From positions 18,885,351-18,949,350 of the forward strand of contig NC_065544.1 of the NCBI RefSeq assembly GCF_932294415.1: a stretch of 64,000 nucleotides of DNA. Reading direction: 5' to 3'. Origin of the DNA: Quercus robur (taxonomy: Eukaryota > Streptophyta > Magnoliopsida > Fagales > Fagaceae). The notes below the pieces were generated by a model. The model was given only the letters and a program-made list of their open reading frames with translations. It was not told the DNA's origin and did not search any database. This document shows, in pieces, positions 1,074 through 60,570 of this stretch (positions within the stretch are counted from its first letter, which is position 1; each line of letters begins with the position of its first letter). Position numbers and translations under genes: made by a program.

Positions 1074-1257
1074 TGTTAGTGTATAGCTTAGACTAGTTTA
1101 GCCCATTGGGCTTAGCCCAGTATACTGTACTTGTAGTTTACTCCTTTTACTTGTACTGCACACATACCTAGCCTATATAAGGCTCTCTATTGTATATTAT
1201 TTCACACACATTAATATACAGACTATTCAGTCTTTCTCATACTTTATATTCTTAACA
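1074..1257 (+). repeat. 5' LTR of copia element
   Basis: This 184-bp direct repeat matches 6064-6247 at every base I compared. A TATA-like TATATAAG lies about 100 bp in and would drive the element's transcript. Confidence 0.95.
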
Positions 1258-1270
1258 TGGTATCAGAGCC
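1258..1270 (+). promoter_or_regulatory. Primer-binding site, initiator-Met tRNA type
   Basis: TGGTATCAGAGCC directly abuts the 5' LTR. It is complementary to the 3' end of initiator methionine tRNA, the usual primer of plant copia elements. Confidence 0.93.
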
Positions 1271-1497
1271 AATCCTCTGACTTTCTGGTTCCTGTGGACA
1301 TCTCCGGCGTTCTTCCGCTGCCCTCGCCTTCATCCAGTAGCCACTGTCAGAAGCGAGTCACCGCCGTCACGCCCACAGTCCCAGCAAATCTCGGATTTCA
1401 ATGTTCTGCTCATCCAACTGTCAAAACAAAGGCATTGAGTGACAGAACACACAATCCCGAGCAAAACCCAACCAAGAACGGCCAGAAAACACTTCAC

Positions 1498-1660
1498 ACG
1501 CGCCCCCACGCGCCGCCAGAAGTTTCTGCCTCACAAGCACGCGCTCCACGCGCCGCCACGCGCCTCCACGCGCCATCAGTCTCATTCACGCGCCCCACGC
1601 GCCAGACCGGACTTCCTCCACGCGCCCTCATGCGCTTACACGCGCCCCACGCGCCAGCTC
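1498..1660 (+). repeat. CACGCGCC short repeats in copia leader
   Basis: About ten imperfect copies of CACGCGCC lie in the untranslated leader between the primer-binding site and gag. The tract is far more GC- and CpG-rich than its surroundings. It is open in two frames, but the composition is repeat-driven and I do not regard it as coding. Confidence 0.7.
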
Positions 1661-1674
1661 TGTTTCGCGATCTG

Positions 1675-1811
1675 CCACGTCAGCCCTAGTGTGACGTCAC
1701 CTGCCACGTCAGCACACGTCAGCCGTTGACTGGACCAGACTTGACCGTTGACTTTGACCGTGACCGTTGACTTTGACCGTTGACCGTTGACTTTGACCGT
1801 TGACCAAGTCA
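1675..1811 (+). promoter_or_regulatory. Cluster of ACGT and W-box motifs in copia leader
   Basis: Four ACGT cores at 1677-1719 include the palindrome TGACGTCA (1692-1699), a bZIP/TGA-type site. They are followed by ten TTGAC cores starting at 1726, 1741, 1748, 1754, 1767, 1773, 1780, 1787, 1793 and 1800, the core bound by WRKY factors. The TTGAC copies form a tandem repeat of a TTGACCGTTGACTT unit. The location is downstream of the LTR, inside the transcribed leader. The regulatory role is inferred from the motifs. Confidence 0.6.
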
Positions 1812-1922
1812 AAATTTTTCAACAGGACCTGTCTTGCTCAGTTTTTCGCGTAGATTCTGATTTTGGGCTCCTTTTCTGCATTTGAGGTATCTAAATATCA
1901 CTTTTTGGTCATTTTCTTCATT

Positions 1923-4900
1923 ATGGCTCAACAAAGTGAACGAGATATCATACGTCCTATCACCATCATGTTGGATGGTCCTACTAGCTATCATGCATGG
2001 TCTCAGAATATGACCGTCTTTCTCAAGGGTCGTAAACTGTGGAGATATGTGACTGGTTCAATTCCTAAGCCAGTACCAAACCCTAAGTCCAAAGCCACAG
2101 CTGCTGAAGAGTCTTCCAAGACTGCTGTTACAACAGATGATTATGAAGAACGTCTAGAAGAATGGGAGAGTATTCAGAGTAAGATCTTATCTTGGTTTAT
2201 CAATACCTCTATTCCCTCTATTCATAATCTTCTTCCTCGTCTTGAAACTGCTGAGGCTGCTTGGAAATTTTTGGCCGATCGATATAACTGCACTAATGAT
2301 TCAAGCTTGGAGTTTCACATTGAATCCAAGCTTTATCAAATGCGCCAAGAGACAGGTCAGTCTATTTCTGATTTTTATTCTCAGACTTCTACTATGTGGG
2401 AACAACTCTCTGCTGCAGATCCTCCACTGGTGTGTTCTAAGGACATTGAGCTCTTTGTCAAATATCGGGATCGCCGTAGATTTATGCACTTCATGATGGG
2501 TTTACGTGAGGATTTTGAGCCTACTAGGGCTTCTCTACTTAGCCGATCTCCTACTCCTTCTCTTGATGCTGCAGTAAAGGAGCTTCTTTCTGAGGAGAAT
2601 CGTCGGCCCACTTATCACATGACATCATCTGATCATGTCTTGGCTACACCCTCACCACAGCCTCCCATTGTTGCATTCACTGCTCCTCCGCGAATAAACT
2701 CCGGGCGTCCCACCTCTCAGTCTTCCAAAGGTGCTCACTACAAGTTTTGCCGTGCCAAAGGCCATGACATCTCTGTTTGTCGTAAGCTACAGAAATTTGT
2801 GCAAGAGCAGAATAAAACTTCTCTTCCTCAGGCAGCTGCTGTATGTCCTTCAGATCCATCGGTTCCTACAGGTCCATCTTTGGCTTCCTCACTTACTACG
2901 GCTGATATTGAGGCAGTTGTTCAACAGGTTTTATCCCGCACTTCCACTGCCCTTTCTGTCACCTCAGGTAAACAACCTTGGTTTTTTGATACTGCATGTT
3001 GTAACCATATGACTCCTGATGAATCCCAATTTTCTGATAAGGCACCCTTAGAACATCCAATCACCATTTACACTGCTGATGGAACTCCTATGCCTGTTAG
3101 TCATAAAGGAACAATCTCTTCTTCTTGTTTATCCCTTAGTGACACTTTTCATATTCCAAAGTTATCCCTCAATTTGCTTTCTGTTGGTCAACTTTGCGAA
3201 TTAGGCGTAGATCTTCTATTTACTAATCATGGTGTGGATGTGCAGGATCCCCGGACGGGTCAAGTGCTTGGGACAGGCCGTAAGGTTGGTCGCATGTTTG
3301 AGGTTCATGACTTGAAGATTCCTTCACAAGTTGTTTCTGCAGCTGCTACAACTGCCACCTCCTCACCTGATCTATGGCATGCTCGTCTTGGTCATCCATC
3401 CTTATCTCGTCTTCAATTGTTAGCTTCTCAAGGTCATTTAGGTTCAGTTCAGTTTTCAAAATTTGATTGTACTTCCTGTCACTTTGGCAAACAAACAAAA
3501 TTGCCATTTAATAAAAGTGACTCATTTTCTTCTGCTCCTTTTGATCTTATACATTCTGATATTTGGGGTCCTGCACCTGTTCCCACTGAGGGGGGATCTA
3601 AATATTTTGTCATATTTGTGGATGATTTTTCTCGGTATACTTGGATTTATCTGCTTCACCATAGGTCTGAACTTGTGTCTATTTACCAAACATTTCATAA
3701 AATGATTGAAACACAGTTCAATTGCACCATTAAAGTCTTTCGATCAGATAATGCTCAAGAATATAATGATAAATCTTTCCTATCCTTTTTAGACAGACAT
3801 GGTACTCTTCCTCAGCGGTCTTGTCCTTACACCTCTCAACAAAATGGTCGTGCAGAACGAAAACATCGTCACATTCTTGATGTTGTCCGCACCTTTCTCA
3901 TTTCTGCCTCTCTTCCTGAGCGATTTTGGGGTGAGGCCGCACTCACTGCTGTGCACACTATTAATCGTATTCCTTCACCAACTACACACAACAAATCACC
4001 ATTTGAGCTTCTCTATCGTCAAACTCCTAACTACTCCTCTCTTCGGGTTTTTGGTTGTGCTTGCTTTGTCTCTCTTCCTCCTCATGAACGAACAAAGCTC
4101 CAACCTCGTACTCGTCTCTGTTGTTTCCTTGGTTATGGTGTGTCTCAAAAAGGGTTTCGCTGCTATGATCCCATTTCTCATCGCCTTCGTGTCTCCCGTC
4201 ATGTTGAGTTTTGGGAACATCGTCCTTTCACGAGTCTTCAGCAGTTTCCTACATCTTCTTCCTCAGAGTCTCCCATTTTTACTGATCTTTTTCTCCCTCT
4301 CTATCCTGAACTTGTGGAGGATTCTTCAGCATCGACTGCCTCTCCAGACGACTCATCTCCGGTTCTGTCTCCGGCATATGACCCGCCTGTCTTGGATCTT
4401 GTGGCACCACCCTCTCCTGAGTCTCCTATTGGTCCTGAACTTCGTCGTTCCACTCGGGTAAGCATTCCTCCCCCTTATCTCACTGATTATCATTGCTCTT
4501 TTGCTCTTGCCACTCTCTATGAACCTCACACCTATCGTGAGGCTCATACTGACCCTCTTTGGCAGCAAGCTATGAATGAAGAACTAGATGCCCTTCATAA
4601 GAATCACACGTGGGATATGGTTGATTTGCCTCCTGGTCAGTCTGTAGTAGGTTGTAGGTGGGTTTACAAGATCAAGACCAAGGCTGATGGATCTGTTGAA
4701 CGCTACAAGGCTCGCCTAGTTGCCAAGGGCTTTACTCAGGAGTATGGTATTGATTATGAGGAAACATTTGCTCCTGTTACTCGTCTTACATCTGTTAGAT
4801 GTCTCATTGCTGTGGCTGCTGTTCGCCATTGGCCTCTTTATCAAATGGATGTGAAGAATGCTTTCCTCAATGGCGACCTCCATGAAGAAGTGTACATGCA

Positions 4901-6056
4901 ACCACCCCCTGGCTATCCACACTCAGGCAATCAAGTTTGCCGCCTTCGCCGTGCTCTTTATGGCCTCAAGCAGGCTCCTCGAGCTTGGTTTGAAAAGTTT
5001 AGCTCAGTTGTTGCTCAGCAGGGTTTCACTTCGAGTCCTCATGACACTGCTCTCTTTGTTCGGAGATCCTCTGCTGGTATCACTCTTATTCTTCTTTATG
5101 TTGATGATATGATTATTACTGGAGATGATTCTGCAGGTATCCGCTCTCTTCAGAGCTTCCTTAGTCAGAACTTTGAGATGAAAGATTTGGGCACTCTCAG
5201 CTATTTTCTTGGGCTTGAGGTTACCTCATCCTCTGATGGATACTATCTTTCCCAGGCTAAATATGCTTCTGATCTTCTCTCCAAAGCCGGTGTCACTGAT
5301 AACAAGACTGTTTCCACTCCTTTGGAATACAATGCAAAGCTCACACCCTTGGACGGTGAACCTATATCCGATGCTACTCGCTATCGTCAGTTGGTTGGCA
5401 GTTTGATCTATCTCACTGTTACTCGTCCGGATATTTCACATGCCGTGGGTATGGTTAGTAAGTTCATGGATGCACCTCGTTCTGTCCACTATGCTGCTGT
5501 TCTTTGGATTCTCCGATATGTCAAAGGCACACTTTATCATGGTCTGCATTACTCCTCTCGATCTTCTCTCGAGCTTCATGCTTTTTCAGATGCTGACTGG
5601 GCAGGTGATCCGACTGATCGATGCTCTACCACAGGTTTCTGTTTCCTGTTAGGTACTTCTCTGGTCTCGTGGCGCAGCAAGAAACAGGATGTGGTTTCCC
5701 GTTCTAGTACTGAGGCTGAGTATCGTGCCCTTGCCGACACCACTTGTGAGCTTGTTTGGCTTCGCTGGCTCTTGGCTAACATGGATGCTCCACAGCCCAC
5801 TGCCACTCCTCTTTATTGTGACAATCGTAGTGCTATCTACATTGCTCATAATGATGTCTTCCATGAACGCACTAAGCATATTGAGATCGACTGCCACATC
5901 ACTCGCCAGCATCTTAAGAAAGGAAATCTCCAGTTATTCTCCATCTCCTCTGCTGACCAGCCTGCTGATATCTTTACCAAGACTCACCCGCCTGGTCGTC
6001 TTCGAGATCTTATATCCAAACTCCAGTTGGCTTCCTCCTTGCCACCTCGAGTTTGA
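1923..6056 (+). CDS. Copia gag-pol polyprotein
   Basis: The 1,377-residue polyprotein makes the element's capsid, protease, integrase, reverse transcriptase and RNase H. The start is the first ATG (residues MAQQSERD); the frame is open further upstream but has no ATG. In order: a UBN2-type gag domain (roughly residues 40-220); a zinc knuckle at 273-286 in which the first Cys is Tyr (Y273, then C276, H281, C286); a protease active site DTAC at 356; a pre-integrase HHCC region near 480-520; an integrase core with D546, D609 and E645 (DD35E spacing); reverse transcriptase near 880-1060 with YVDD at 1059; RNase H with D1223, E1264 and D1300. The frame has no stop or frameshift. The TGA stop falls at the edge of the polypurine tract. 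Confidence 0.97.
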   Translation: MAQQSERDIIRPITIMLDGPTSYHAWSQNMTVFLKGRKLWRYVTGSIPKPVPNPKSKATAAEESSKTAVTTDDYEERLEEWESIQSKILSWFINTSIPSIHNLLPRLETAEAAWKFLADRYNCTNDSSLEFHIESKLYQMRQETGQSISDFYSQTSTMWEQLSAADPPLVCSKDIELFVKYRDRRRFMHFMMGLREDFEPTRASLLSRSPTPSLDAAVKELLSEENRRPTYHMTSSDHVLATPSPQPPIVAFTAPPRINSGRPTSQSSKGAHYKFCRAKGHDISVCRKLQKFVQEQNKTSLPQAAAVCPSDPSVPTGPSLASSLTTADIEAVVQQVLSRTSTALSVTSGKQPWFFDTACCNHMTPDESQFSDKAPLEHPITIYTADGTPMPVSHKGTISSSCLSLSDTFHIPKLSLNLLSVGQLCELGVDLLFTNHGVDVQDPRTGQVLGTGRKVGRMFEVHDLKIPSQVVSAAATTATSSPDLWHARLGHPSLSRLQLLASQGHLGSVQFSKFDCTSCHFGKQTKLPFNKSDSFSSAPFDLIHSDIWGPAPVPTEGGSKYFVIFVDDFSRYTWIYLLHHRSELVSIYQTFHKMIETQFNCTIKVFRSDNAQEYNDKSFLSFLDRHGTLPQRSCPYTSQQNGRAERKHRHILDVVRTFLISASLPERFWGEAALTAVHTINRIPSPTTHNKSPFELLYRQTPNYSSLRVFGCACFVSLPPHERTKLQPRTRLCCFLGYGVSQKGFRCYDPISHRLRVSRHVEFWEHRPFTSLQQFPTSSSSESPIFTDLFLPLYPELVEDSSASTASPDDSSPVLSPAYDPPVLDLVAPPSPESPIGPELRRSTRVSIPPPYLTDYHCSFALATLYEPHTYREAHTDPLWQQAMNEELDALHKNHTWDMVDLPPGQSVVGCRWVYKIKTKADGSVERYKARLVAKGFTQEYGIDYEETFAPVTRLTSVRCLIAVAAVRHWPLYQMDVKNAFLNGDLHEEVYMQPPPGYPHSGNQVCRLRRALYGLKQAPRAWFEKFSSVVAQQGFTSSPHDTALFVRRSSAGITLILLYVDDMIITGDDSAGIRSLQSFLSQNFEMKDLGTLSYFLGLEVTSSSDGYYLSQAKYASDLLSKAGVTDNKTVSTPLEYNAKLTPLDGEPISDATRYRQLVGSLIYLTVTRPDISHAVGMVSKFMDAPRSVHYAAVLWILRYVKGTLYHGLHYSSRSSLELHAFSDADWAGDPTDRCSTTGFCFLLGTSLVSWRSKKQDVVSRSSTEAEYRALADTTCELVWLRWLLANMDAPQPTATPLYCDNRSAIYIAHNDVFHERTKHIEIDCHITRQHLKKGNLQLFSISSADQPADIFTKTHPPGRLRDLISKLQLASSLPPRV

Positions 6057-6063
6057 GGGGGGA
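6053..6063 (+). promoter_or_regulatory. Polypurine tract
   Basis: The purine run GAGGGGGGA lies directly before the 3' LTR and overlaps the end of the gag-pol stop codon. It is the expected plus-strand primer site. Confidence 0.9.
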
Positions 6064-6247
6064 TGTTAGTGTATAGCTTAGACTAGTTTAGCCCATTGGG
6101 CTTAGCCCAGTATACTGTACTTGTAGTTTACTCCTTTTACTTGTACTGCACACATACCTAGCCTATATAAGGCTCTCTATTGTATATTATTTCACACACA
6201 TTAATATACAGACTATTCAGTCTTTCTCATACTTTATATTCTTAACA
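6064..6247 (+). repeat. 3' LTR of copia element
   Basis: This 184-bp repeat matches the 5' LTR without visible difference. It is followed by the target duplication GTGAG, after which the minisatellite resumes. Confidence 0.95.
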
Positions 6248-18027: not shown

Positions 18028-20895
18028 TTATCTTCCTATTTGGTGTTGAACTGCATAGTGAAGATAAATAAACCATTTATATTTCCTTGTGATCACAATT
18101 TGCCCAATAATAACTCCAATTATGAATCCACAACCATATCCGATCACAACTACTTTCCAGCCGAATTCAGATAGCAACTTTGATTCTTGATTTAAAGGAT
18201 GGTGCAATGGGTCCTCGAAATTTCCACATTTCTTTGGCAAAGGACTTCCACACAATTCAGGATTACCATTGAAAGACTTGTCCTGAAAGGTATCAAATTG
18301 GAACCCATGTGGTATAGGCCCTATTAAATGATTGTTAGAGACATTGAAAAAAGCAAGGAAGGTGAGCTGTGTTAGTTGTGGAGGGATCTCTCCAGACAAC
18401 TTGTTTTGAGAAAGGTCCAATGCTTCTAGTGCTGTCAACTTCTCCAGTGATGAGGGGATAGAACCCGTGAGTAAGTTGTTGGATAGGTTGAGCAATTGGA
18501 TTTCTTTCAAATTCCCCATGAGTTCTGGAATTTCTCCTTCAAAGTTATTGCTTGAAAGATCCATGGCTATGAGAATATATGGGATTCTCTGGTATGCAGT
18601 CTCCATGCCTCTGTTTGTGAATGTCATTGAGTAAGGGTAGTGAGATGTCACTATATATCCAGGTATAAGGTATTTATCGTATGCTTGCATATACATTTGA
18701 CCATGCTTACCAATGATTTGCATGGCTTTCCAAATTTGAAAGTACTCAAACGGTAACTTTCCAGTTATGTTATTGTAAGAAATGTCAATGATATGCAAGT
18801 TTGGAAACACAAAATTACTTTCGGGTTTCCCTATTGCTCCATGGAGTTGATTATATCGTAATATAAGCACCCCCAATTCTGGAAGAACCCCCAACCAAGA
18901 GGGGAAAGAATCATTTATCTGATTGTTTCCGAGAACAAGAGTTTCCAACATAGTGCAGCTCACCAACGATCTTGGTATCCACCCCTGTAATTGATTTTGA
19001 CTAAAATCAATCATTTTCAATTTGCTCCCCTTCTTGCATATTTGAGGAATGTTGCCGTGAAAGTTGTTCCTTCTTAGCTTGAGAATTGATAAGGAAAAAC
19101 TGAGGTTTCCCAAACAATCCGGAAGCATGCCACTCAAGTTGTTATATGACAAGTCAAGGTAAAGAAGAGAACTTAGATTGCAAATCATTTGTGGGATTTC
19201 TCCGGCTAGTGTGTTGTTTGAGACTGAGTAAGTAATGATGGAAGGTGGTGGGATAGGAAGTGATCCCTGCAGCTTGTTATTACTAAGATCCAAATCTTTT
19301 AGATTGGTCCATGGTAGAATAACAGGAAGTTGGGAGAAACCTGTTAGAAAATTGTCAGACAGATAAAGACTCAAAAGAGTTTTTTTACTTGAGTTACACA
19401 TCCAATTTGGTATTAGGCCACTAATTTTGTTTTCTGAAAGTTCCAAAATCTCCAATTCATCTTGGTGTTTTAGAAAATCTGGGAACTCATCTAAGTCACA
19501 AGAAGCCAGTCCTAGGGTCTGAAATTTTGGAAAAGTTATGTTGTTACTAGGCTTTGTCAGCAAGGAAATTTGGTTGGAAGACAGTTTGAAGTAAGAGAGG
19601 TTTCGGAGTTTCAAAAATAAGTCAAATTCAACTATACCACCAAAGTAATTAGAATCCAGATAGAGAGTTTCAAGATTCATAAGCCTAGATATCCATGATG
19701 GTATTGCACCATGCAAACCATTGCTTCCAAGTTGCAAATCAGCTAGTTGGGTAAGGTTTGCAAGCCAAGATGGAATATGGCCCGTTAAATTACAAGAACC
19801 AAGGTTTAAATATGTAAGCTGGGTAAGGTTTCGAATAAAAGATGGGATGCCACTATTCAAATTGAGGTTCGCTAGGCCCAACGCAATGAATTTAGATTGC
19901 TTACCGATCCAATCCAAAGTACCACGGTTGAAATTGTTATCTGAAAGTTCCAGATTGATGAGCTCGGTAAGATTACCAAGTGAGGATGGTACTGGTCCAG
20001 AGAAATTGCAATCGCAAACGTCAAAATCATATAACAACTTGAGGTCACCAATTGAATCTGGTAGCTCACCATAAAAACTCGTACCTGCAACATTCAAGAG
20101 TTCAAGGGGTCTGCTTCTGTTAAATTCTGGAAGATATCCAGTCAGATCTGGATTGAACCACACACTGAGGATCTGTAGATTTGGTAGTTGAAAAATTCCT
20201 GCCGGGAACTCACCTTGCAAACCACACTCTCCAAGTACAAGAGAAGTTAAAGAAGTAAGGTTCGCCATGTTATTGGGCACTGTCGAAGATATATCAACCT
20301 GACTAAGATGTAACTCCTCCATGTTTGGAAACTTCTCAACTAGGCTTTGTAAGCCAGGGTTTTGGAGCTTCAATAAATTGAGAGAGAGTTGAAGATAAAC
20401 CAACTTAGAAAGCTGTAAAATTTCGGCTGGGATTTGGCCTGCGAATCCTGATCCATAGAGGTCCAAATAAGTTAGATTTGAAAGCTGCCTAATACCAACA
20501 GGGATTCTAGAGTGGTTAAAGTCATTGAAGGAGAGATTCAGCCTCTGGAGATTAACAAGACGGAAAAGGCTACTACTGGAGTTGATAGAACCATAGAGAC
20601 AACTATTGCTGAGATCAAGGCTGATCACATGACCGGTGTCCTTGTCGCACCCAACACCATCCCATGAGCAGCAATCATCACTTTCAAGCTTCCACGAAGA
20701 AACCTTCGGGTAAGCAGAAGTTTCAGAAGATGCAGACTGATCGATGATAAAGCTTTCCTTGAATTGCAGCAAGGCGAAGCTCTCATCATCATGGCATAAA
20801 GGTTGCACGAAAGAAGAGCTGGCAAACATAAGATTATACAACGAAAGTAGAGCAAGCAAGTGCATGAGCATGAACAGAGAAATTGATAAACCCAT
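18028..20895 (-). CDS. LRR receptor-like protein (RLP, Cf/Ve type)
   Basis: This intact single exon encodes 955 residues. I chose the ATG at 20895 (MGLSISLF) because the nine upstream codons begin with GTG. It has a hydrophobic signal peptide (about 1-30), an LRRNT_2 cap with the C75-C76 and C83 motif (DDCCSWDGVGCD), more than 25 plant extracellular LRRs of the LxxLxLxxNxLxGxIP type, a non-LRR island around FEYFQIWKAMQ to NRGMETAYQRI, four final LRRs, a Cys-rich C-cap, a transmembrane helix (about 915-935, Gly-rich with GxxxG spacing) and a 20-residue basic tail without a kinase. Such proteins bind apoplastic ligands at the plasma membrane and signal through partners like SOBIR1. The ligand cannot be told from sequence. 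The intact frame suggests a functional gene. Confidence 0.93.
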   Translation of the reverse strand: MGLSISLFMLMHLLALLSLYNLMFASSSFVQPLCHDDESFALLQFKESFIIDQSASSETSAYPKVSSWKLESDDCCSWDGVGCDKDTGHVISLDLSNSCLYGSINSSSSLFRLVNLQRLNLSFNDFNHSRIPVGIRQLSNLTYLDLYGSGFAGQIPAEILQLSKLVYLQLSLNLLKLQNPGLQSLVEKFPNMEELHLSQVDISSTVPNNMANLTSLTSLVLGECGLQGEFPAGIFQLPNLQILSVWFNPDLTGYLPEFNRSRPLELLNVAGTSFYGELPDSIGDLKLLYDFDVCDCNFSGPVPSSLGNLTELINLELSDNNFNRGTLDWIGKQSKFIALGLANLNLNSGIPSFIRNLTQLTYLNLGSCNLTGHIPSWLANLTQLADLQLGSNGLHGAIPSWISRLMNLETLYLDSNYFGGIVEFDLFLKLRNLSYFKLSSNQISLLTKPSNNITFPKFQTLGLASCDLDEFPDFLKHQDELEILELSENKISGLIPNWMCNSSKKTLLSLYLSDNFLTGFSQLPVILPWTNLKDLDLSNNKLQGSLPIPPPSIITYSVSNNTLAGEIPQMICNLSSLLYLDLSYNNLSGMLPDCLGNLSFSLSILKLRRNNFHGNIPQICKKGSKLKMIDFSQNQLQGWIPRSLVSCTMLETLVLGNNQINDSFPSWLGVLPELGVLILRYNQLHGAIGKPESNFVFPNLHIIDISYNNITGKLPFEYFQIWKAMQIIGKHGQMYMQAYDKYLIPGYIVTSHYPYSMTFTNRGMETAYQRIPYILIAMDLSSNNFEGEIPELMGNLKEIQLLNLSNNLLTGSIPSSLEKLTALEALDLSQNKLSGEIPPQLTQLTFLAFFNVSNNHLIGPIPHGFQFDTFQDKSFNGNPELCGSPLPKKCGNFEDPLHHPLNQESKLLSEFGWKVVVIGYGCGFIIGVIIGQIVITRKYKWFIYLHYAVQHQIGR

Positions 20896-21233
20896 AATGT
20901 TGTACTGAATTTTGTTTAGCACTCTTAGAATTTAAGAATAAGAAGAAAAACTAGAATAAAATGGTACAAACTTCTTAGATTTGCACTGAAATGAGATTGG
21001 GGAAATTCTCAGATTTGTGGATGAAAATAAAATAAAAGAGATACTTCTATTGGATGATATGTATGAGATGAAGAAAAGCTAAGCTTTTACAAGAGAATTA
21101 CAAGAAGACTTATTGAAGATTGCAGAACAAACACACAGAGAGCAAAAGGAAAGAGTGAAAAGAGAGAGAGAGAGATTTGCGAGGAAGAGAAGTTTGTTAT
21201 TTCACAATATGAAAGATTTACACAATGTACAGG

Positions 21234-21460: not shown

Positions 21461-24400
21461 TAACTGTTTCACTCTGCTGTGCATCTACTGTAGCATTCCT
21501 TTGTGCATCCTCTTCAACATGAGAAATATCAAGGTTTTAAAAACCGGAACTATGAAAGAACCGGTCGAAAAGCTCATTACCGATTTTCTGGTTGGTCCCG
21601 GTTCAACTGATGGTTGAACCAGTGACATCATAAATAATTTAATTATTTAAATTATATAAATAATTAATAATTTTTTTAATATACTAAAACTAACAAACAA
21701 AAGGAAATAAATATGTTTCCTTAAAAAATAAAATACAAGTATATGACATCTTTTTAAAGAATTTAACATAATAGCAATACAAAACAATCATCCTTAACAT
21801 AATAAACTTTCAACAAAAACAAATAAATAAGTTCATTAGTCATTACATTTACATCCAAATGGCAAAAAGCAAATAAGTTCACTACGTCCAAATAGCAAAT
21901 AAGTTTTAAAGTTTCAAACAAACAACTACTAAGTTTTAAGACACAAGCCTCATTTGTTATAAAGAAAATTGAAATCAAGATTGTCATGTGAACCAAATGC
22001 TCCACCACTAGCATCATTATCATCATCCTCATCCTCATTCTTCATCTTCAACTTGAATAGAATGATTTCTATCTCTAAATCCGGGAGGAGCATCAATTTC
22101 ATTACCAAATGATTCCAAATTGATGTCATCATCATTCTCAATCACTTCATTGTCCATATCTATACAAATTCCAAAACCATTCCTTTGTGCATCCACTTCA
22201 ACATGAGAAATATCAAGGGTTTAAAAACCGGTACGGTGACATCATAAATAATTTAATTATTATTTATTTAAATTATATAAATAGTTAATAATTTTTTAAT
22301 ATACTAAAACTAACAAACAAAAATTAATAAATATGTTTCCTTTAAAAAAATACAAGTATATAACATTTTTTTAAAGAATTTAACATAATAACATTACAAA
22401 ACAATCATCCTTAACATAATAAACTTTCAACAAAGCCGAATAAATAAGTTCATTAGTCATTACATTTAAATCCAAATGGATAATAGCAAATAAGTTCATT
22501 ACATCCAAATAGCAAATAAGTTTTAAAGTTTCAAACAAACAACTACTAAGTTTTAAGACACAAGCCTCATTTGTTATGAAGAAAATTGAAATCAAGATCA
22601 TCATGTGAACCAAATGCTCCACCACTAGCATCATTATCATCATCCTCTTCCTCATCTTCTTAATCTTCAACTTGAATAGGATGATTTCTATCTCTAAATC
22701 CGGGAGGAGCATCAATTTCATCACCAAATAATTCCAAATTGATGTCATCATCATCCTCAATCACTTCATTGTCCATATCTATAAAAATTCCAAAACCATT
22801 CCTTTGTGCATCCTTTTCAACATGAGAAATATCAAGGTTTTAAAAACCGGTGCAGTGACATCATAAATAATTTAATTATTATTTATTTAAATTATATAAA
22901 TAATTAATAATATTGTAATATACTAAAACTAACAAAACAATAGTAATAAATATGTTTCCTTTAAAAAAAAATACAAGTATCTAACATCTTTTTAAAGAAT
23001 TTAACATAATAACATTACAAAACAATCATCCTTAACATAATATCTTTCAACAAAACCAAATAAATAAGTTCATTAGTCATTACATTTACATCCAAATGGC
23101 AAATAGCAAATAAGTTCATTACATCCAAATAGCAAATAAGTTTTAAAGTTTCAAACAAACAACTACTAAGTTTTAAGACACAAGCCTCATTTGTTATGAA
23201 GAAAATTGAAATCAAGATCATCATGTGAACCAAATGCTCCACCACTAGCATCATTATCATCATCCTCTTCCTCATCTTCTTAATCTTCAACTTGAATAGG
23301 ATGATTTCTATCTCTAAATCCGGGAGGAGCATCAATTTCATCACCAAATAATTCCAAATTGATGTCATCATCATCCTCAATCACTTCATTGTCCATATCT
23401 ATACAAATTCCAAAACCATTCCTTTGTGCATCCTTTTCAACATGAGAAATATCAAGGTTTTAAAAACCGGTACAGTGACATCATAAATAATTTAATTATT
23501 ATTTATTTAAATTATATAAATAATTAATAATATTGTAATATACTAAAACTAACAAACCAATAGTAATAAATATGTTTCCTTTAAAAAAAAATACAAGTAT
23601 CTAACATCTTTTTAAAGAATTTAACATAATAACATTACAAAACAATCATCCTTAACATAATATCTTTCAACAAAACCAAATAAATAAGTTCATTCGTCAT
23701 TACATTTACATCCAAATGGCAAATAGCAAATAAGTTCATTACATCCAAATAGCAAATAAGTTTTAAAGTTTCAAACAAACAACTACTAAGTTTTAAGACA
23801 CAAGCCTCATTTGTTATGAAGAAAATTGAAATCAAGATCATCATGTGAACCAAATGCTCCACCACTAGCATCATTATCATCATCCTCTTCCTCATCTTCT
23901 TAATCTTCAACTTGAATAGGATGATTTCTATCTCTAATTCCGGGAGGAGCATCAATTTCATCACCAAATAATTCCAAATTGATGTCATCATCATCCTCAA
24001 TCACTTCATTGTCCATATCTATAAAAATTCCAAAACCATTCCTTTGTGCATCCTTTTCAACATGAGAAATATCAAGGGTTTAAAAACCGGTACGGTGACA
24101 TCATAAACAATTTAATTATTATTTATTTAAATTATATAAATAGTTAATAATTTTTTAATATACTAAAACTAACAAACAAAAATTAATAAATATGTTTCCT
24201 TTAAAAAAATACAAGTATATAACATTTTTTTAAAGAATTTAACATAATAACATTACAAAACAATCATCCTTAACATAATAAACTTTCAACAAAGCCGAAT
24301 AAATAAGTTCATTAGTCATTACATTTAAATCCAAATGGATAATAGCAAATAAGTTCATTACATCCAAATAGCAAATAAGTTTTAAAGTTTCAAACAAACA

Positions 24401-25045
24401 ACGACTAAGTTTTAAGACACAAGCCTCATTTGTTATGAAGAAAATTGAAATCAAGATCATCATGTGAACCAAATGCTCCACCACTAGCATCATTATCATC
24501 ATCCTCTTCCTCATCTTCTTAATCTTCAACTTGAATAGGATGATTTCTATCTCTAAATCCGGGAGGAGCATCAATTTCATCACCAAATAATTCCAAATTG
24601 ATGTCATCATCATCCTCAATCACTTCATTGTCCATATCTATAAAAATTCCAAAACCATTCCTTTGTGCATCATTTTCAACATGAGAAATATCAAGGTTTT
24701 AAAAACCGGTGCAGTGACATCATAAATAATTTAATTATTATTTATTTAAATTATATAAATAATTAATAATATTGTAATATACTAAAACTAACAAAACAAT
24801 AGTAATAAATATGTTTCCTTTAAAAAAAAATACAAGTATCTAACATCTTTTTAAAGAATTTAACATAATAACATTACAAAACAATCATCCTTAACATAAT
24901 ATCTTGCAACAAAACCAAATAAATAAGTTCATTAGTCATTATATTTACATCCAAATGGCAAATAGCAAATAAGTTCATTACATCCAAATAGCAAATAAGT
25001 TTTAAAGTTTCAAACAAACAACTACTAAGTTTTAAGACACAAGCC

Positions 25046-25255
25046 TCATTTGTTATGAAGAAAATTGAAATCAAGATCATCATGTGAACCAAATGCTCCA
25101 CCACTAGCATCATTATCATCATCCTCATCCTCATCTTCTTCATCTTCAACTTGAATAGAATGATTTCTATCTCTACATCCGGGAGGAGCATCAATTTCAT
25201 TACCAAATGATTCCAAATTGATGTCATCACCATCCTCAATCACTTCATTGTCCAT
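25046..25255 (-). CDS. Acidic 69-aa tail, array unit 6
   Basis: The frame starts MDNEVIED and ends HNK, with an Asp/Glu block in the middle (VEDEEDEDEDDDNDASGG). It is open upstream of the ATG for about 25 further codons (HVEEDAQRNGFGICID), so it looks like the end of a larger protein, possibly the lost hAT transposase. Independent translation is unlikely but not excluded. Confidence 0.35.
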   Translation of the reverse strand: MDNEVIEDGDDINLESFGNEIDAPPGCRDRNHSIQVEDEEDEDEDDDNDASGGAFGSHDDLDFNFLHNK

Positions 25256-25668
25256 ATCTATAAAAATTCCAAAACCATTCCTTTGTGCATCCTCTTCAAC
25301 ATGAGAAATATCAAGGTTTTAAAAACCGGTACGGTGACATCATAAACAATTTAATTATTATTTATTTAAATTATATAAATAGTTAATAATTTTTTAATAT
25401 ACTAAAACTAACAAACCAATAGTAATAAATATGTTTCCTTTTAAAAAAAAAATACAAGTATCTAACATCTTTTCAAAGAATTTAACATAATAACATTACA
25501 AAACAATCATCCTTAACATAATAAACTTCCAACAAAACCAAATAAATAAGTTCATTAGTCATTACATTTACATCCAAATGGCAAATAGCAAATAAGTTCA
25601 TTACATCCAAATAGCAAATAAGTTTTAAAGTTTCAAACAAACATCTACTAAGTTTTAAGACACAAGCC

Positions 25669-25878
25669 TCATTTGTTATGAAGAAAATTGAAATCAATAT
25701 CATCATGTGAACCGAATGCTCCACCACTAGCATCATTATCATCATCCTCATCCTCATCTTCTTCATCTTCAACTTGAATAGGATGATTTCTATCTCTAAA
25801 TCCGAGAGGAGCATCAATTTCATCACCAAATGATTCCAAATTGATGTCATCATCATACTCAATCACTTCATTGTCCAT
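25669..25878 (-). CDS. Acidic 69-aa tail, array unit 7
   Basis: This has the same frame as unit 6 with a few substitutions (DAPLGFRDRN). It is one of only three units in which this frame reaches its natural stop. Confidence 0.35.
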   Translation of the reverse strand: MDNEVIEYDDDINLESFGDEIDAPLGFRDRNHPIQVEDEEDEDEDDDNDASGGAFGSHDDIDFNFLHNK

Positions 25879-26288
25879 ATCTATACAAATTCCAAAACCA
25901 TTCCTTTGTGCATCCTCTTCAACATGAAAAATATCAAGGTTTTAAAAACTGGTAGGGTGACATCATAAACAATTTAATTATTATTTATTTAAATTATATA
26001 AATAGTTAATAATTTTTTAATATACTAAAACTAACAAACCAATAGTAATAAATATGTTTCCTTTAAAAAAAATACAAGTAAATAACATCTTTTTAAAGAA
26101 TTTAATATAATAACATTACAAAACAATCATCCTTAACATAAGAAACTTTCAACAAAACCAAATAAATAAGTTCATTAGTCATTACATTTACATCCAAATG
26201 GCAAATAGCAAATAATTTCATTACATCCAAATAGCAAATAAGTTTTAAAGTTTCAAACAAACAACTACTAAGTTTTAAGACACAAGCC

Positions 26289-26498
26289 TCATTTGTTATG
26301 AAGAAAATTGAAATCAAGATCATCATGTGAACCGAATGCTCCACCACTAGCATCATTATCATCATCCTCATCCTCATCTTCTTCATCTTCAACTTGAATA
26401 GGATGATTTCTATCTCTAAATCCGGGAGGAGCATCAATTTCATCACCAAATGATTCAAAATTGATGTCATCGTCATCCTCAATCACTTCATTGTCCAT
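26289..26498 (-). CDS. Acidic 69-aa tail, array unit 8
   Basis: This has the same frame as units 6 and 7 (DDDDINFESFGDEIDAPPGF). Units 1-5, 9 and 10 carry a premature stop in or beside the acidic block. Confidence 0.35.
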   Translation of the reverse strand: MDNEVIEDDDDINFESFGDEIDAPPGFRDRNHPIQVEDEEDEDEDDDNDASGGAFGSHDDLDFNFLHNK

Positions 26499-28253
26499 AT
26501 CTATACAAATTCCAAAACCATTCCTTTGTGCATCCTCTTCAACATGAGAAATATCAAGGTTTTAAAAACCGGTAGGGTGACATCATAAATAATTTAATTA
26601 TTATTTATTTAAATTATATAAATAGTTAATAATTTTTTAATATACTAAAACTGACAAACTAATAGTAATAAATATGTTTCCTTTAAAAAAAATACAGGTA
26701 TATAACATCTTTTTAAAGAATCTAACATAATAACATTACAAAACAATCATCCTTAACATAATAAACTTTCAACAAAACCAAATAAATAAGTTCATTAGTC
26801 ATTACATGTACATCCAAATGGCAAATAGCAAATAAGTTCATTACATCCAAATAGCATATAAGTTTTAAAGTTTCAAACAAACAACTACTAAGTTTTAAGA
26901 CATAAGCTTCATTTGTTAAGAAGAAAATTGAAATCAAGATCATCATGTGAACCGAATGCTCCACCACTAGCATCATTATCATCATCCTTATCCTCATCTT
27001 CTTAATCTTCAACTTGAATAGGACGATTTCTATCTCTAAATCTGGGAGGAGCATCAATTTCATCCCCAAATGATTCCAAATTGATTTCATCATCATCGTC
27101 AATCACTTCATTGTCCATATCTTTACAAATTCCAAAACCATTCCTTTGTGCATCCTCTTCAACATAAGAAATATCAAGGTTTTAAAAACTGGTACAGTGA
27201 CGTCATAAATAATTTAATTATTATTTATTTAAATTATATAAATAATTAATAATTTATTAATATACTAAAACTAACAAACCAATAGTAACAAATATGTTTC
27301 CTTTAAAAAAAAATACAATTATCTAACATTTTTTAAAGAATTTAACATAATAACATTTGCAAAACAATCATCCTTAACATAATAAACTTTCAACAAAACC
27401 AAATAAATAAGTTCATTAGTCATTACATTTACATCCAAATGGCAAATAGCAAATAAGTTCATTACATCCAAATAGCAAATAAGTTTTAAAGTTTCAAACA
27501 AACATCTACTAACTTTTAAGACACAGGCCTCATTTTTTATGGAGAAAATTGAAATCAATATCATCATGTGAACTGAATGCTCCACCACTAGCATCATTAT
27601 CATCATCCTCATCCTCATCCTCATCTTCTTAATCTTCAACTTAAATAGGATGATTTCTATCGCTAAATTCGGGAGGAGCATCAATTTCATCACCAAATGA
27701 TTCCAAATTGATGTCATCATCATCCTCAATCACTTCATTGTCCGTGTCTATACAAATTCCAAAATCATTCCTTTATGCGTCCTCTTCAACATGAGAAATA
27801 ATCAAATATGTGCTTTGGGCTTTGATTGGAACAAAATGTTGAGGAAGACTGAAAATGATCAAGAACTTATATTGAGAAAGAGAGAGACTTGAGATTTGAG
27901 AATGAGTGGCTGAGAAGCGAGAGGATGTCTATTTTATTATAGAAAGAGTGTGGAAAGAAGACTGAGAAGTAAAATTTAAGAAGTTTGAATATGATTTTAG
28001 GACTTGAGGGTAGGTAGTAACATGTGGTTATAGATTTAGGGGGAAAAAAGAAAAGAAAACTTGAGTAAACGTGTATGACTAGACAAGATTATGAAAGTAG
28101 GAATGGAAATGAATAACTTGTCTATTTATTCTTTTTTTTTTTTGAGGAATGACTTGTTTAGTCATTTTGACATCTTGGACTCTGGTTTTAGTTTTTTTTT
28201 TTTTTTTTTTTCACAATAAATAGTTAAAAGTTGAAGTTAAAATATTAAACTAT

Positions 28254-36654: not shown

Positions 36655-36835
36655 ATTTCGATCGATCCATTCTGTTTTTCGATCGATCGAAAATTTTTAA
36701 ATTTGATAGAGAGTGCCTCTGTCTGTTTCGATCGATCGAAACTGTTTTTCAATCGATTGAACTTGTTTCAAATTGTTTTTATAGAGTCTCTGTCTATTTC
36801 AATCGATCGAGGCTGTTTTTCGATCGATTGAAACT
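36655..36835. repeat. Tandem repeat with paired TCGATCGA palindromes
   Basis: About three ~65-bp units each contain CCTCTGTCTGTTTCGATCG and then, about 20 bp on, a second CGATCGAT core separated by CTGTTTTT. A pair of the same motif lies in the 3' LTR at 39416-39450. The role is unknown; self-complementary motifs in Sirevirus LTRs are an established observation. Confidence 0.7.
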
Positions 36836-54241: not shown

Positions 54242-54531
54242 CACTACAACAAAATGTATTTTCACTGTAGACTAATTAAATTCGCGCCCTAATTTTTCCT
54301 TTTGGCGCCCTTGTTTCAAATCAACAAATAGCGACGAAATTTCAATTTCGTCACTAAAGGCTATTATATTTTTTCATTTTTAGCGACGAAATTCAAATTT
54401 CGTCACTAGAGGTTATTATTTTTTTCATTTTTTGCAACGAATTATAAATTTCGTCACTAAATGTAAGTTTTCAATGACGAAAAATTTTTCCTCACTAAAA
54501 TTCGTCACTAAAAATACATTTTCTTGTAGTG
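54242..54531. mobile_element. CACTA MITE with 3-bp target duplication
   Basis: The terminal inverted repeats are CACTACAACAAAATGTATTT and CACTACAAGAAAATGTATTT, differing at one base. They are flanked by CCA at 54239-54241 and 54532-54534. The interior has the subterminal TTTCGTCACTAAA and TAGCGACGAAATT motifs typical of En/Spm-type elements. At 290 bp it is non-autonomous. Confidence 0.93.
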
Positions 54532-55053: not shown

Positions 55054-55063
55054 CAATCTTTTA

Positions 55064-55397
55064 GGCCAAAATGGCCATATACCACCTTTTTTGGAAATTT
55101 TTAGCAAAAAAACACTGTTTCGGAAATAAATGGCACACTACCACTTTTTCCAGAACTTGAGTTTCAGAAACTCGAGTTCCTCATCAGTTCTGCCACCGTG
55201 GCACTGCTGAGTTGGATTTGTGCGATTAAAAAAAATTATGTGGTACTCGAGCTTGGTAAACTCGAGTACCATTTACACAATACTCGAGTATACCAAGCTC
55301 AAGTACTTTTTATAAATAAAATGCAAAAAAAAAAAAAAAAAAAAAAATTACACAGTACTCGAGTTTGGTAAACTCGATTACTGTGTAAATTTTTTTT
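55064..55397. repeat. Left TIR of the MULE-like element
   Basis: GGCCAAAATGGCC, then CTGTTTCGGAAATAAATGGC, paired ACTCGAG motifs (GGTACTCGAGCTTGG and inverted partners) and an A tract. It matches the reverse complement of 60236-60560 over about 320 bp. Confidence 0.85.
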
Positions 55398-55406
55398 TTT
55401 TTTTGC

Positions 55407-55438
<32 letters not shown>

Positions 55439-55594
55439 TGTTTTTTTTTTGTTTTTTTTTTTTTTTTTTTTTGTTTGGTGATAAACAACAAATAAACATA
55501 AAGATAAAAATAAGTAGCTTTTTTTATGTTTTTATTTATTTAAATAGAAGTATTGTAAAATATAGAGATTTTAATTTCGAAATATGAATTTAAT

Positions 55595-57240
55595 TTCTAC
55601 ATTAATTAAAATTGTTCATTGTTTTCTCATAAAAATTGTTCATTGTTTTCTATATAAACAATTTCTACGATTTTGCATAAAATTACTTTCTATTCAGCAT
55701 TATTTAAGAAATTGTTTGCTCTCTTTTTTGCATAAATTATTTTTTGTTCACTATTTAAAAAATTGTTCACTGTTTTCTCATAAAACACCTAGTGAAATCG
55801 TGTTTTCTAAATTTAAACGCCAAATCTGAATGCTTTTTCATGTTTGAATTTCACAATAATCGAATATATTTTTCTGAATTTATAAAATCTGTTTCTACAT
55901 TAATAAAATTTTCCCTTTGCACATCATATTTATTGTATATTCAAATCTGCTTATTGCATTCATAAAATCTGTTTTCTGCATTAAGTAAAACTGTTCACTG
56001 TTTTCTCATAAAAATTGTTCACTGTTTTCTGTAAAAACTATTTCTAGCATTTTGCATAAAATTATTTTCTGTTCAACATTATTTAAAAAATTGTTCACTC
56101 TCTTTTCTGCGTAAATTATTCTCTGTTCACTGTTTAAAAAATTGTTCGTTGTTTTCTCATAAAACACCTAGTGAAATCGTGTTTTCTAAATTTAAAAGCC
56201 AAATCTGAATACTTTTTCATGTTTAAATTTCACAATAATCGAATTTGTTTTTCTGCATTGATAAAATCTGTTTCTAGGTTAATAAAATTTGCTCTTTACA
56301 TATCATGTTTACTGTATTTTCGAAGCTGCTTACCGCATTCATAAAATCTTTTTTTTGCATTAATTAAAACTGTTTACTGTTTTCTCATAAAAATTGTTCA
56401 CTCTTTTCTGCATAAATTGTTTTTAGCATTGGCGCAGTTATTGCACTTATATGGTTTTTGTGTTTTTTTTTTTTTAAATATGTAACCATATGAATAATGG
56501 ACAAACTCCATGAAAGAAAAATGAATGATTCGTACAAATCACCTAATGGTAAATGCCTTGAAAAATTCGAATTTGTAAAAAAGTTCGAATTAGTTGAATG
56601 TAGAACTGTTCACTAAGTAAAACTATTTTCTGCATTAAGTAAAATTGTTCACTGTTTTCTCATAAAAATTGTTCAATATTTTCTGCATAAACTATTTCTA
56701 GCATTCTGCATAAAATTATTTTCTGTTCAGCATTATTTAAAAAATTGTTCACTCTCTTTTCTGCGTAAATTATTCTCTGTTCAATGTTTAAAAATTTGTT
56801 CGCTGTTTTCTCATAAAACACCTAGTGAAATCGTGTTTTTTAAATTTAAAAGCCAAATTTGAATGCTTTTTCATGTTTAAATTTCACAATAATCGAATTT
56901 GTTTTTCTGCATGGATAAAATCTGTTTCTACGTTAATAAAATTTGCTCTCTACACATCATGTTTAATGTATTTTTGAAGCTTCTTACCGCATTCATAAAA
57001 TTTGTTTTTTGCATTAAGTAAAACTGTTCACTGTTTTCTCATAAAAATTGTTCACTATTTTCTGCATAAACAGTTTTTAGCATTGGCGCAATTATTGCAC
57101 TTAAATGGTTTTTGTGTTTTTTTAAATATGTAACCATATGAATAATGGACAAACTCCATGAAAGAAAAATGAATGATTCATATAAATCACCTAATGGTAA
57201 ATGCCTCGAAAAATTCGAATTTGTAAAAAAGTTCGAATTA
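55595..57240. repeat. Tandem ~390-bp units in the MULE-like interior
   Basis: Three copies carry TTGTTCACTGTTTTCTCATA, then AACACCTAGTGAAATCGTG and TTTCACAATAATCGAAT. The second and third are followed by the same ~220-bp spacer (AGCATTGGCGCA to TGCCTTGAAAAATTCG), giving a 650-bp higher-order unit. Confidence 0.75.
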
Positions 57241-57971
57241 GTTGAATGTAGAAAGTCTAGAAAAATCGATGGAAAATCAATGAACGTACCAAATCGTGAA
57301 GGTGTACATAAGATGTACAGATAGTCTAGACTTGTTGAGAAATTTGATTTCGTTGAAAGTACAAAATAATGAAAATTCAATGGAAAAGTATGTACGTTAG
57401 ATGTATAGATCGTATGTATTTGTTAAAAATTTGAATTCGTTGAATGTACAAAACTGTGAAAACTCAAGGAAAAATTGTGTACATTAGATGTACAGATAGT
57501 ACGAATTTGTTGAAAAGTTTGAATTCGTTGATTGTGTAAAATTGTGAAAATTCAAATGAAAATTGAACATAACAAATTGAGTAAACTTAATGGAAAATTA
57601 ATTACATTAGATGTACAGATCATCCAAATTTGTTTCCAAATTTGAAGTCGTCAAATGTACGAAATCGTGAAAATTCAATTTAAAACTATGTACTAACGTA
57701 CTAATCATCCTGATTTGATGAAAATTTCAAAATTGTTGAACGTACAAAATCGTGAAATCTTAATGGAAAATCGAAATTGTTAAACGTACCAAATCATGAA
57801 AATTCAATGGAAAATTGTGTACATTAGATGTACAAATATTCTGGACTTGTTGAGAAATTTGATTTCGTTGAAAGTACAAAATCGTGAAAATTCAAGAGAA
57901 AATTGTGTACATTAGATGTACAGATCGTTCGAATTTGTAAAAAACAAAATTTAGATGTGTAGATCGTTCGA

Positions 57972-58160
57972 ATTTGTTGATTGTATAAAATCTTGAAAGT
58001 ACAGAATAAAATTGTGTAAATTAGATTTCGAATTTTTCCATTTAATTTTCACGATTTTGTACATTTAACCAATTCAAACTTTTCAACAAATTTAGACTAT
58101 CTGTACATCTAATTTACACAATTTTATTTTGTACTTTCAAGATTTTATACAATCAACAAA
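57972..58160. repeat. Central inverted repeat of the fold-back interior
   Basis: 54-bp arms at 57972-58025 and 58107-58160 match with one mismatch around an 81-nt spacer. Sequences outside these arms are also inverted copies of each other, so this marks the axis of symmetry. Confidence 0.85.
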
Positions 58161-59029
58161 CTCAACAGTTAATGAACAGTTAATCTCTAGATTTGCAAAA
58201 GTTGAATGTACATAATCATCAGTTGTCAGACATTAACAACAACATTTTGTATTGCACAGAATGTGTAGACATTAACAATAACGTCTAATGTTCATAGGTA
58301 GAAATTTTTGGAAATCATTATTACTTGAATCTGAGAAGTCTGAAATATCTCTTTCATCATCTAATGCAGTAACTTCTTTCCAACCCATTTCCCTCCATAG
58401 TGGTTTGTGTATGTCTGTAGTTGTTGATCTGTGCAATAATTGCGTCAATGCTAAAAACAGTTTATGCAGAAAACAGTGAACAATTTTTATGAGAAAACAG
58501 TGAACAGTTTTACTTAATGCAAAAAAAAAAATTTTATGAATGCAGTAAGCAGATTCGAATATACAGTAAATAGGATGTGCAGAGAGAAAATTTTATTAAT
58601 GTAGAAACAGATTTTATCAATGCAGAAAAATATATTCGATTATTGTGAAATTCAAACATGAAAAAGCATTCAGATTTGACATTTAAATTTAGAAAACACG
58701 ATTTCACTAGGTGTTTTATGAGAAAAAAGCGAACAATTTCTTAAATAGTGAACAGAAAATAATATACGCATAAAAGAGAGTTAACAATTTTTTAAATAAT
58801 GCTGAATAGAAAATAATTTTATGCAGAATGCTAGAAATAGTTTATGCAGAAAACAGTGAACAATTTTTATGAAAAAACAGTGAACAGTTTTAATTAATGC
58901 AAAAAACAGATTTTATGAATGCAGTAAGCAAATTTGAATATATAGTAAATATGATGTGCAGAGAGCAAATTTTATTAATGTAGAAACAGATTTTGTCAAT
59001 GCATAAAATTTTTTTTTTTTTTGCATTTT

Positions 59030-59222
59030 ATTTATGAAAGGTACTCGAGCTTGGTATACTCGAGTATTGTGTTGCATGGTACTCGAGTTTACCAAGCTCG
59101 AGTACCACATAATTTTTTTTAATCGCACAAATCCAAGTGGTAGTTTGCCATTTATTTCCGAAACAGTGTTTTTTTGCTAAAAATTTCCAAAAAAGGTGGT
59201 ATTTGGCCATTTTGGCCAAATA
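59030..59222. repeat. Internal third TIR copy with a deletion
   Basis: It has the same orientation as the right TIR and the same CTCGAG motifs and GGCCATTTTGGCC end, but lacks about 65 bp found in the other two copies (the segment around GAACTGATGAGG). It has no matching target duplication. Confidence 0.75.
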
Positions 59223-59756
59223 TTGGAGAGAACAATTTGGAAGGATCATATACTACTAAAGGTAAGTTATACAATGCTCAGACTCTTATATACACAGTAA
59301 GATAATCATTACCAACATAATTTTAGAAAACCATAACCTATTATAAACTTTTTATAAATATTTTTCATGAGATTTCTTTAAAAAAAAAATGAAACTAAAC
59401 TTGTGTTCCTTAACATTTGAACCATTCTAACACATGATTCTTTTGTAATTTAAAATAAATTTCGTATTACATTTTCCAATCCTTTATTATTCTCGATAAT
59501 AATTTTGCATCTCTTGCAATTCTAGTTATAATGATTTGGAATCACTTGTTAAAATTCCATAGCCTTCAAAAGAACATAGAGATCTTTTGTAACTCAATCA
59601 GTTTATGCACATATTTGAAGACCAATGGAACTCGAAAAATGGCTGTCATGTTTACTTTACCACTTTCTCATGAAAGTAACAAAAGCAGAAGTTTCAGACA
59701 TTGATAGTTTGTTTCATGCTTTTGAAAACCATGTTGTATAGATTTTGGATTTTAGG

Positions 59757-59798
<42 letters not shown>
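59757..59798. repeat. Poly(A), 42 nt
   Basis: An uninterrupted A tract inside the MULE-like element, between the third TIR copy and the right TIR. It may be the tail of a retroposed sequence whose body I could not identify. Confidence 0.7.
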
Positions 59799-59800
<2 letters not shown>

Positions 59801-60235
59801 AACAAGTAAAAAGTTGTAATAGAAGCATTTACTTTTAAATTTGTTGACATTCTTGTTATAAAATTCCACCTAAATAGGAAAAATGTATTTTCCTATGGAC
59901 AAATTATTTAGTTTTCACTCGTTTAACTGATGATGTTGATGATAAAAACAAAGTGGACATTTCTAATTCTTTCTTGGATTTGTAACTGTTAAACCAAAAT
60001 CTGTATATATTGCTTTTATTTAAACTTTACATATAGCATGCCACATATCTTTCCGTAACTATTTCATAGTATACAATATTAATAATTTTTTTTTTTTTTT
60101 TTACAATTTCCATGTCTAAAAATTTTATTATTATTTTAGAGTTAGGTGCACTAAACAACCTAGAGCAGTTGTACTTGGAGTTATTATTATTTTATGTTTA
60201 TTTGTTGTTTATCCCCAAACAAAAAAAAAAAAAAA

Positions 60236-60560
60236 AAATTTACATGGTACTCGAGTTTGGTAAACTCGAGTACTGTAGAATTTTTTTTTTTTTTTTTTGC
60301 ATTTTATTTATAAAAGGTACTCGAGCTTGGTATACTCGAGTATTGTGTTGCATGGTACTCGAGTTTACCAAGCTCGAGTACCACATAATTTTTTTTAATT
60401 GCACAAACCCAACTCAGCAGTGCCACGATGGCAGAACTGATGAGGAACTTGAGTTTCTGAAACTCGAGTTCTAGAAAAAGTGGTAGTTTGCCATTTATTT
60501 TTGAAACAGTGTTTTTTTGCTAAAAATTTCCAAAAAATGTGGTATTTGGCCATTTTGGCC
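60236..60560. repeat. Right TIR of the MULE-like element
   Basis: Inverted relative to 55064-55397, it ends GGCCATTTTGGCC and is followed by the target duplication CAATCTTTTA. Confidence 0.85.
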
Positions 60561-60570
60561 CAATCTTTTA

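Follow-up and report, generated by a model that had tools for sequence, protein, structure and literature searches.

How Mutator-like elements (MULEs) acquire gene fragments is still debated, and to our knowledge most gene captures leave no trace of the order of events. A locus in Quercus robur raises this question: a fold-back element at positions 55064-60560 of a 64,000-nucleotide stretch of contig NC_065544.1 (assembly GCF_932294415.1, positions 18,885,351 to 18,949,350, forward strand), hereafter the window. In this study, the element was analysed together with its relatives in the Quercus robur assembly (785.7 Mb, 42 contigs). It is a real non-autonomous Mutator-like fold-back transposon that carries a fragment of a leucine-rich repeat (LRR) receptor gene directly against the outermost base of an internal third terminal inverted repeat (TIR). 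Moreover, its two ends belong to different TIR subfamilies. The overall best explanation, which we consider probable, is that a MULE first inserted into the receptor gene, that the capture produced a compound arm, and that this arm was later joined to a left arm of the other subfamily.

A fold-back element with hairpin-rich ends

The element is flanked on both sides by an exact 10-bp direct repeat, CAATCTTTTA, also readable as 11 bp with one C ambiguous. In a chance control in which the ends could slide by 3 bp, an exact repeat of at least 9 bp was found for 3 of 2000 random position pairs. MULEs are marked by target site duplications (TSDs) of 9-11 bp and by long TIRs, typically of 100-500 bp. 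The window element, with its exact 10-bp TSD, has TIRs of 450 and 380 bp, which were delimited from two inverted-repeat alignments, one of 355 columns at 90.7% and one of 59 columns further inward at 94.9%. The long inverted repeats consist mostly of tandem units, in unequal numbers on the two arms, as in fold-back elements; any kinship to the Drosophila FB transposons may be claimed only as a resemblance in layout. The TSDs show that the element, or its compound ancestor, has transposed. The boundary features are as follows (the AT and AA subfamilies are described below).

55054-55063, plus strand: left TSD, CAATCTTTTA
55064-55513, plus strand: left TIR, AT subfamily, beginning with GGCCAAAATGGCC, an imperfect palindrome; it contains CTCGAG hairpins, and its inner edge is rich in A/T
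55153-55179: TIR hairpin 1 (GAACT..CTCGAGTTC), within the 65 bp absent from all three inner TIRs
55249-55300: compound hairpin 2/3, made of two CTCGAG palindromes with additional pairing between them
55348-55388: TIR hairpin 4
60181-60560, minus strand: R2, the right outer TIR, AA subfamily
60561-60570, plus strand: right TSD, CAATCTTTTA

Eleven of the window's 12 ACTCGAGT sites lie inside the element, and shuffling gave an expectation of 0.37 for the whole window. Three strong hairpins were predicted in the left TIR, compared with a mean of 0.005 and a maximum of 1 in 200 shuffles, and the folding of this TIR differed from shuffled sequences by z = -11.4 as DNA and z = -9.9 as RNA. The CTCGAG palindromes are nested, since two of them pair with each other too. 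A search of viral contigs with the TIR gave 0 matches. The longest stop-to-stop frame within the element is 134 aa, and the window element contains no transposase. The original prediction, made from the letters alone, had described a Mutator-type fold-back element with an exact 10-bp target duplication, self-complementary TIR motifs that could form compound hairpins and no transposase, all of which was borne out; it had also given about 320 bp for the inverted repeats, which are present and longer than that.

Copies with the same ends, for which it had proposed a search, were found. The left TIR had at least 116 matching stretches in the assembly (best 40 of 837 candidates scored), and the 379-bp tandem units of the interior (A units) occurred in the same fold-back layout, with varying arm lengths, in 19 of 20 loci taken from the TIR matches. 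Both ends were in hand for 18 elements, including the window element and L041. An exact TSD of at least 9 bp was present in 14 of these, an 8-bp TSD in one, a TSD with one mismatch in two and none in L010; the 14 exact TSD sequences are all different, and three are of low complexity. Palindromes and tandem arrays are prone to misassembly, but an assembly artefact or an ordinary segmental duplication was rejected as having virtually no chance of being right, given the exact TSD, the recurrence of the same ends and layout at many independent places with different TSDs, and the identical capture junctions at three places.

The full-length MULE with the same ends that had also been proposed did not appear: the copies examined include no transposase-bearing one. 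In scans of five open reading frames (ORFs) from inserts in relatives, copia gag and Transposase_32 domains were recognised and MULE domains were not; the other ORFs were judged by eye. PF10551 proteins are present in the genome (best 150 of 1249 candidates scored), and no match lies near the listed TIR places, the nearest being about 109 kb away in a by-eye comparison of the matches listed on both sides. Separately, family-type ends stand about 19 kb apart at L019-L020 (C6:21794385-21814000), around long tandem arrays with repeated open frames, together with A units.

The captured receptor-gene fragment and the internal TIR

The interior had been described as a large palindrome of two tandem families. 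This palindrome exists, but the description was incomplete, as a third TIR and a captured LRR-gene fragment had been overlooked.

59009-59217, minus strand: R1, a third TIR, of the AA subfamily, inside the element; 65 bp are deleted from its interior, and the captured gene adjoins its outermost base
59218-60179, plus strand: LRR-receptor gene fragment, consisting of an exon (59218-59261), a GT-AG intron (59262-60139) and an exon (60140-60179)

R1 is oriented in the same way as R2, of which it lacks 65 bp, and the two are similar over 128 bp at 97.7% and 90 bp at 94.4%. One extra TIR with at least 100 bp of similarity, the inner TIR being without a TSD of its own, corresponds to multi-TIR MULE type 5; R1 can have no TSD pair because the left flank of its own element is absent. 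The identical 65 bp, including one hairpin, are gone from all three inner TIRs (window, L015 and L041). At least 56 of these bases are kept in 36 of the 38 aligned outer TIRs, although two of the 36 (L023_L and L026_L) are truncated beyond base 134 and 105, so that their aligned bases are partly unrelated; the other two outer TIRs (L027_R and L028_L) have 33 of the 65 bases, and further deletions cut both. We infer that the deletion either disabled the inner end or arose once that end was no longer needed.

The extra TIR could in principle have come from replication slippage or TIR duplication in one element, with the gene fragment filled in later. The repeated TIR motifs favour slippage, which is also discussed in the sections of PMC3310237 consulted here. 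However, 960 bp of gene lie between the two TIRs, and the gene starts at the outermost base of the TIR and not at its inner edge; this origin is disfavoured and seems very improbable.

The captured fragment begins directly after the last base of R1. Its spliced 28-aa peptide is identical at 26 of 28 positions to a Quercus protein and to the Q. suber "LRR receptor-like kinase, GSO2". Pfam did not recognise this peptide, and its PDB matches were weak, to LRR proteins, with a best E of 1.3e-5. Because an LRR gene fragment with an intron sits between MULE TIRs, the element is a Pack-MULE. In the genome search with the fragment (34 of 34 candidates scored), near-full-length matches were found as eight stretches on C4 at 83.18-83.99 Mb, with 87-94% identity. 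Besides these and partial matches to more distant copies, the fragment occurred only at transposon places, namely the window, C5 (two copies, one partial), C6 (two) and C38 (the last 60 bp). The eight C4 gene copies are likely the parents of the captured fragment, and both capture points are crossed without a break in all eight. The window also contains an intact LRR receptor-like protein (RLP) gene (18028-20931, minus strand), nearest to Quercus robur and Castanea RLP7/9DC3-like proteins, which is not of the captured fragment's parent type; the captured peptide was absent among 120 listed homologues of this RLP.

The junction J1, where the TIR terminus meets AAATA, is identical in three of the four complete or near-complete LRR copies (window, L015-left and L041-right), and junction J2 is identical in all five transposon copies examined. 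Furthermore, the transposon-borne LRR copies form one clade in a tree (99/95), in which the window copy branches first (other four, 95/94). These data show a capture of single origin and independent insertions thereafter. In the C6 element, L015, the fragment is present on both arms, LRR(-) at 705-1659 and LRR(+) at 3374-4318; the C5 element has it whole on the right arm and truncated on the left. In this family, fragments of receptor genes come to lie in inverted repeats, which are known as one kind of small-RNA source. The inverted LRR pair at L015:301-4703 (C6), which aligns over 1377 columns at 91.9% when the outer TIRs are counted in, is a candidate source of hairpin RNA.

Mixed ends and the order of events

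The closest pair among the left TIR, R1 and R2 could not be identified from pairwise differences, as the sites were nearly all private changes, and the relationship was settled by a family-wide TIR alignment. In the tree of 41 TIRs, the left TIR of the window element falls in a 20-row clade (99/96) that contains none of the ten LRR-linked TIRs. Three diagnostic sites (TIR positions 15, 210 and 211) were then scored in 37 rows, four truncated rows being dropped. Thirty-six rows are purely of one type and L017_R is divided 2:1; the left TIR has the AT type at 3/3 sites, and R1 and R2 have the AA type at 3/3. Position 15 is partly built in because the loci had been grouped by their first bases, while positions 210-211 are independent. 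The two ends agree in type in all 12 other complete pairs and disagree at all three sites in the window element. Mixed ends were thereby demonstrated, and the element is a chimera, as its two ends belong to different TIR subfamilies. Such ends suggest either that a single transposase can pair ends from both subfamilies or that elements exchange arms with one another.

The AT-type left arm may have been gained by recombination before the last jump or by conversion in place, and the exact TSD allows both. If the mixed ends were made in place, the left arm would have been gene-converted by an AT-subfamily element after insertion and the chimera would never have jumped. The exact TSD fits a single AA/AA insertion that was later converted, and the flanks would need no change; the conversion tract, however, must reach nearly to the terminus, because the left arm is of AT type at all three sites from position 15 inward. 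We regard this route as possible, although we lean away from it.

The history that we favour would run as follows. In line with established MULE biology, a MURA-type transposase acting in trans would bind the hairpin-rich TIRs, cut at GGCC and insert the element by a cut staggered by 9-11 bp. A MULE would first have inserted into an exon of the LRR receptor gene, which left its terminus against AAATATTGGA. About 960 bp of adjoining gene, including the intron, would next have been joined at its far side, presumably during repair, to the inner edge of another TIR, and with the loss of 65 bp from the inner TIR the outer TIR would have become the working end. The compound arm would then have moved to at least three places, and the window copy would have gained a left arm of the second TIR subfamily by recombination or arm replacement. 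Insertion first is preferred because R1 is an intact terminus against an exon, as expected after a MULE had landed there; the second TIR is joined at its inner edge 962 bp downstream of the junction between R1 and the gene.

In a more specific form, which we put forward tentatively and at somewhat less than even confidence, J1 would be the fossil of a capture by flank transduction. The right end, crippled by the 65-bp deletion, would have been bypassed, and its place as the working end would have been taken by a new TIR that was either copied in or joined on 960 bp downstream. The fragment at C5 and C6 would then have been copied to the opposite arm, giving an inverted repeat of gene sequence, in L015 with arms about 960 bp long, from which hairpin RNA targeting the LRR gene cluster might be made.

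Alternatively, a second family member with R1 as its right end might have hit an older Pack-MULE consisting of the outer TIRs and the LRR fragment, after which the left TIR of the second element and the gene sequence beyond it were deleted. R1 does end exactly at gene sequence, and among the origins that PMC3310237 considers for extra TIRs is a nested insertion whose inner TSD was lost. Nevertheless, no transposon copy was seen with gene sequence upstream of J1, and the both-arm fragments of L015 and L041 end at the same outer-edge junction, for which a single event would be insufficient. Nested insertion therefore appears unlikely.

Several observations speak against insertion first followed by the joining of an AT left arm. 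No gene copy was found with a MULE still at the capture point, and the left TSD expected from an insertion into the LRR gene is not preserved. The right LRR copy of L015 has no J1, having lost its first 13 bp along with most of the inner TIR. The history of the arms is not simple either, since C6_L lies closer to C5_R, at 0.96%, than to C6_R, the other arm of its own element, at 2.38%. The bootstrap correlation of the 41-TIR tree was 0.984 and had not settled, and four truncated TIRs lie on long branches. The chimera breakpoint could not be placed in the core (55.5-59.0 kb) because in this region the AT relatives are almost as close as the AA relatives, with little to choose between them. Finally, the assignment to Mutator rests on the form of the TSD and TIRs, as no transposase-bearing copy was found.

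Insertion-first capture is testable by comparing oaks because the junction, the parents and the relatives are all in one assembly. The unused TIR terminus has stayed joined to the captured exon across independent insertions.

The interior and comparison with known systems

The interior contains two tandem families, A, with a 379-bp unit and an accompanying 146-bp piece, B, and C, with a unit of about 88 bp. Inverted copies of A and C are present on the right side, and both families are only partly repeated in inverted form.

55594-56430, plus strand: A repeats, 379-bp tandem unit, 2.2 copies
56460-56605, plus strand: B repeat, copy 1
56619-57100, plus strand: second A block, 654 bp after the first
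57108-57253, plus strand: B repeat, copy 2, 96% to copy 1
57302-58026, plus strand: C array, units of about 88 bp
58034-58165, minus strand: inverted C copy
58164-58446, plus strand: U, the family's common centre, from which an internal deletion has removed about 360 bp that most copies seen contain
58431-59008, minus strand: inverted A block, 91% to 55870-56446

Segment U was also considered as filler DNA, which was rejected when the genome search (best 40 of 321 first-look candidates scored) showed it to be the common centre of the family. In larger family members the centre holds a multicopy ORF (L052:988-1605) with 265 protein-database relatives, of which all 120 listed are unnamed (ENA); it may be a remnant of the family's own coding region. 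No Pfam family scored above the cut-off for the ORF remnant in U, and the window gave no match in Rfam or tRNA scans.

Elsewhere in the window, a young-looking Ty1/copia element lies at 1074-6247, with 184-bp long terminal repeats that are 100% identical (1074-1257 and 6064-6247) and an open frame of 1400 aa encoding gag, integrase and reverse transcriptase domains. About nine near-identical units of about 620 bp, seen as near-identical minus-strand open frames, occupy 22380-27729. Clusters of short hairpins of the ATCGATCG and TAGCGACGAAATT types, at 36656-36833 and 54329-54408, are probably other small inverted-repeat elements.

No published description of this oak family was recognised among titles and abstracts of the open-access literature, and papers matching the TIR or hairpin letters, judged from listings, included none on this kind of element. 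The comparisons that follow draw on the parts of each source that were consulted. The type 5 multi-TIR MULEs of PMC3310237 (Ferguson and Jiang 2012) have an additional solo internal TIR and a gene fragment; copies are rare for solo-TIR elements, and the origin of the extra TIRs (recombination, nested insertion or acquisition) is left open there. The oak element shares with this type the 9-11 bp TSD, long TIRs, one extra internal TIR without a recognisable TSD, a gene fragment and its non-autonomous state. It differs in that the inner TIR is joined to the gene directly at its outermost base, that the inner TIRs share a 65-bp deletion, that the capture is multicopy at several places, and that tandem units make up a long fold-back in the interior. 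In root-knot nematodes, the Mutator/Foldback family Tm1 (PMC3169594) likewise has composite TIRs of variable length, built from repeated motifs whose numbers differ between ends, with a 9-bp TSD. However, the Tm1 motifs measure 8-21 bp, against 379 and 88 bp for the oak units, and a transposase is encoded by some Tm1 members, while none was found in the oak family.

Pack-CACTA hybrid elements formed from neighbouring insertions enclose chromosomal DNA, and both facing ends are lost by complementary deletions, according to the text consulted in PMC13317346. As in these hybrids, intron-bearing host gene DNA lies between two transposon ends in oak, but here one facing end survives whole at its terminus. 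For Pack-TIR elements, the passages of PMC8277862 consulted give end bypass, gap filling and FoSTeST as models of origin; they call the Pack-MULE type of origin perplexing and incompatible with end bypass, as the parental copies are not linked to MULEs. The oak parental copies likewise have no remaining MULE, yet end bypass would place gene sequence right beside an element end that is not used, as is seen in oak. Published MULEs already include some that have a gene fragment and an additional internal TIR; what is new here is the terminus-to-exon junction together with the mixed ends.

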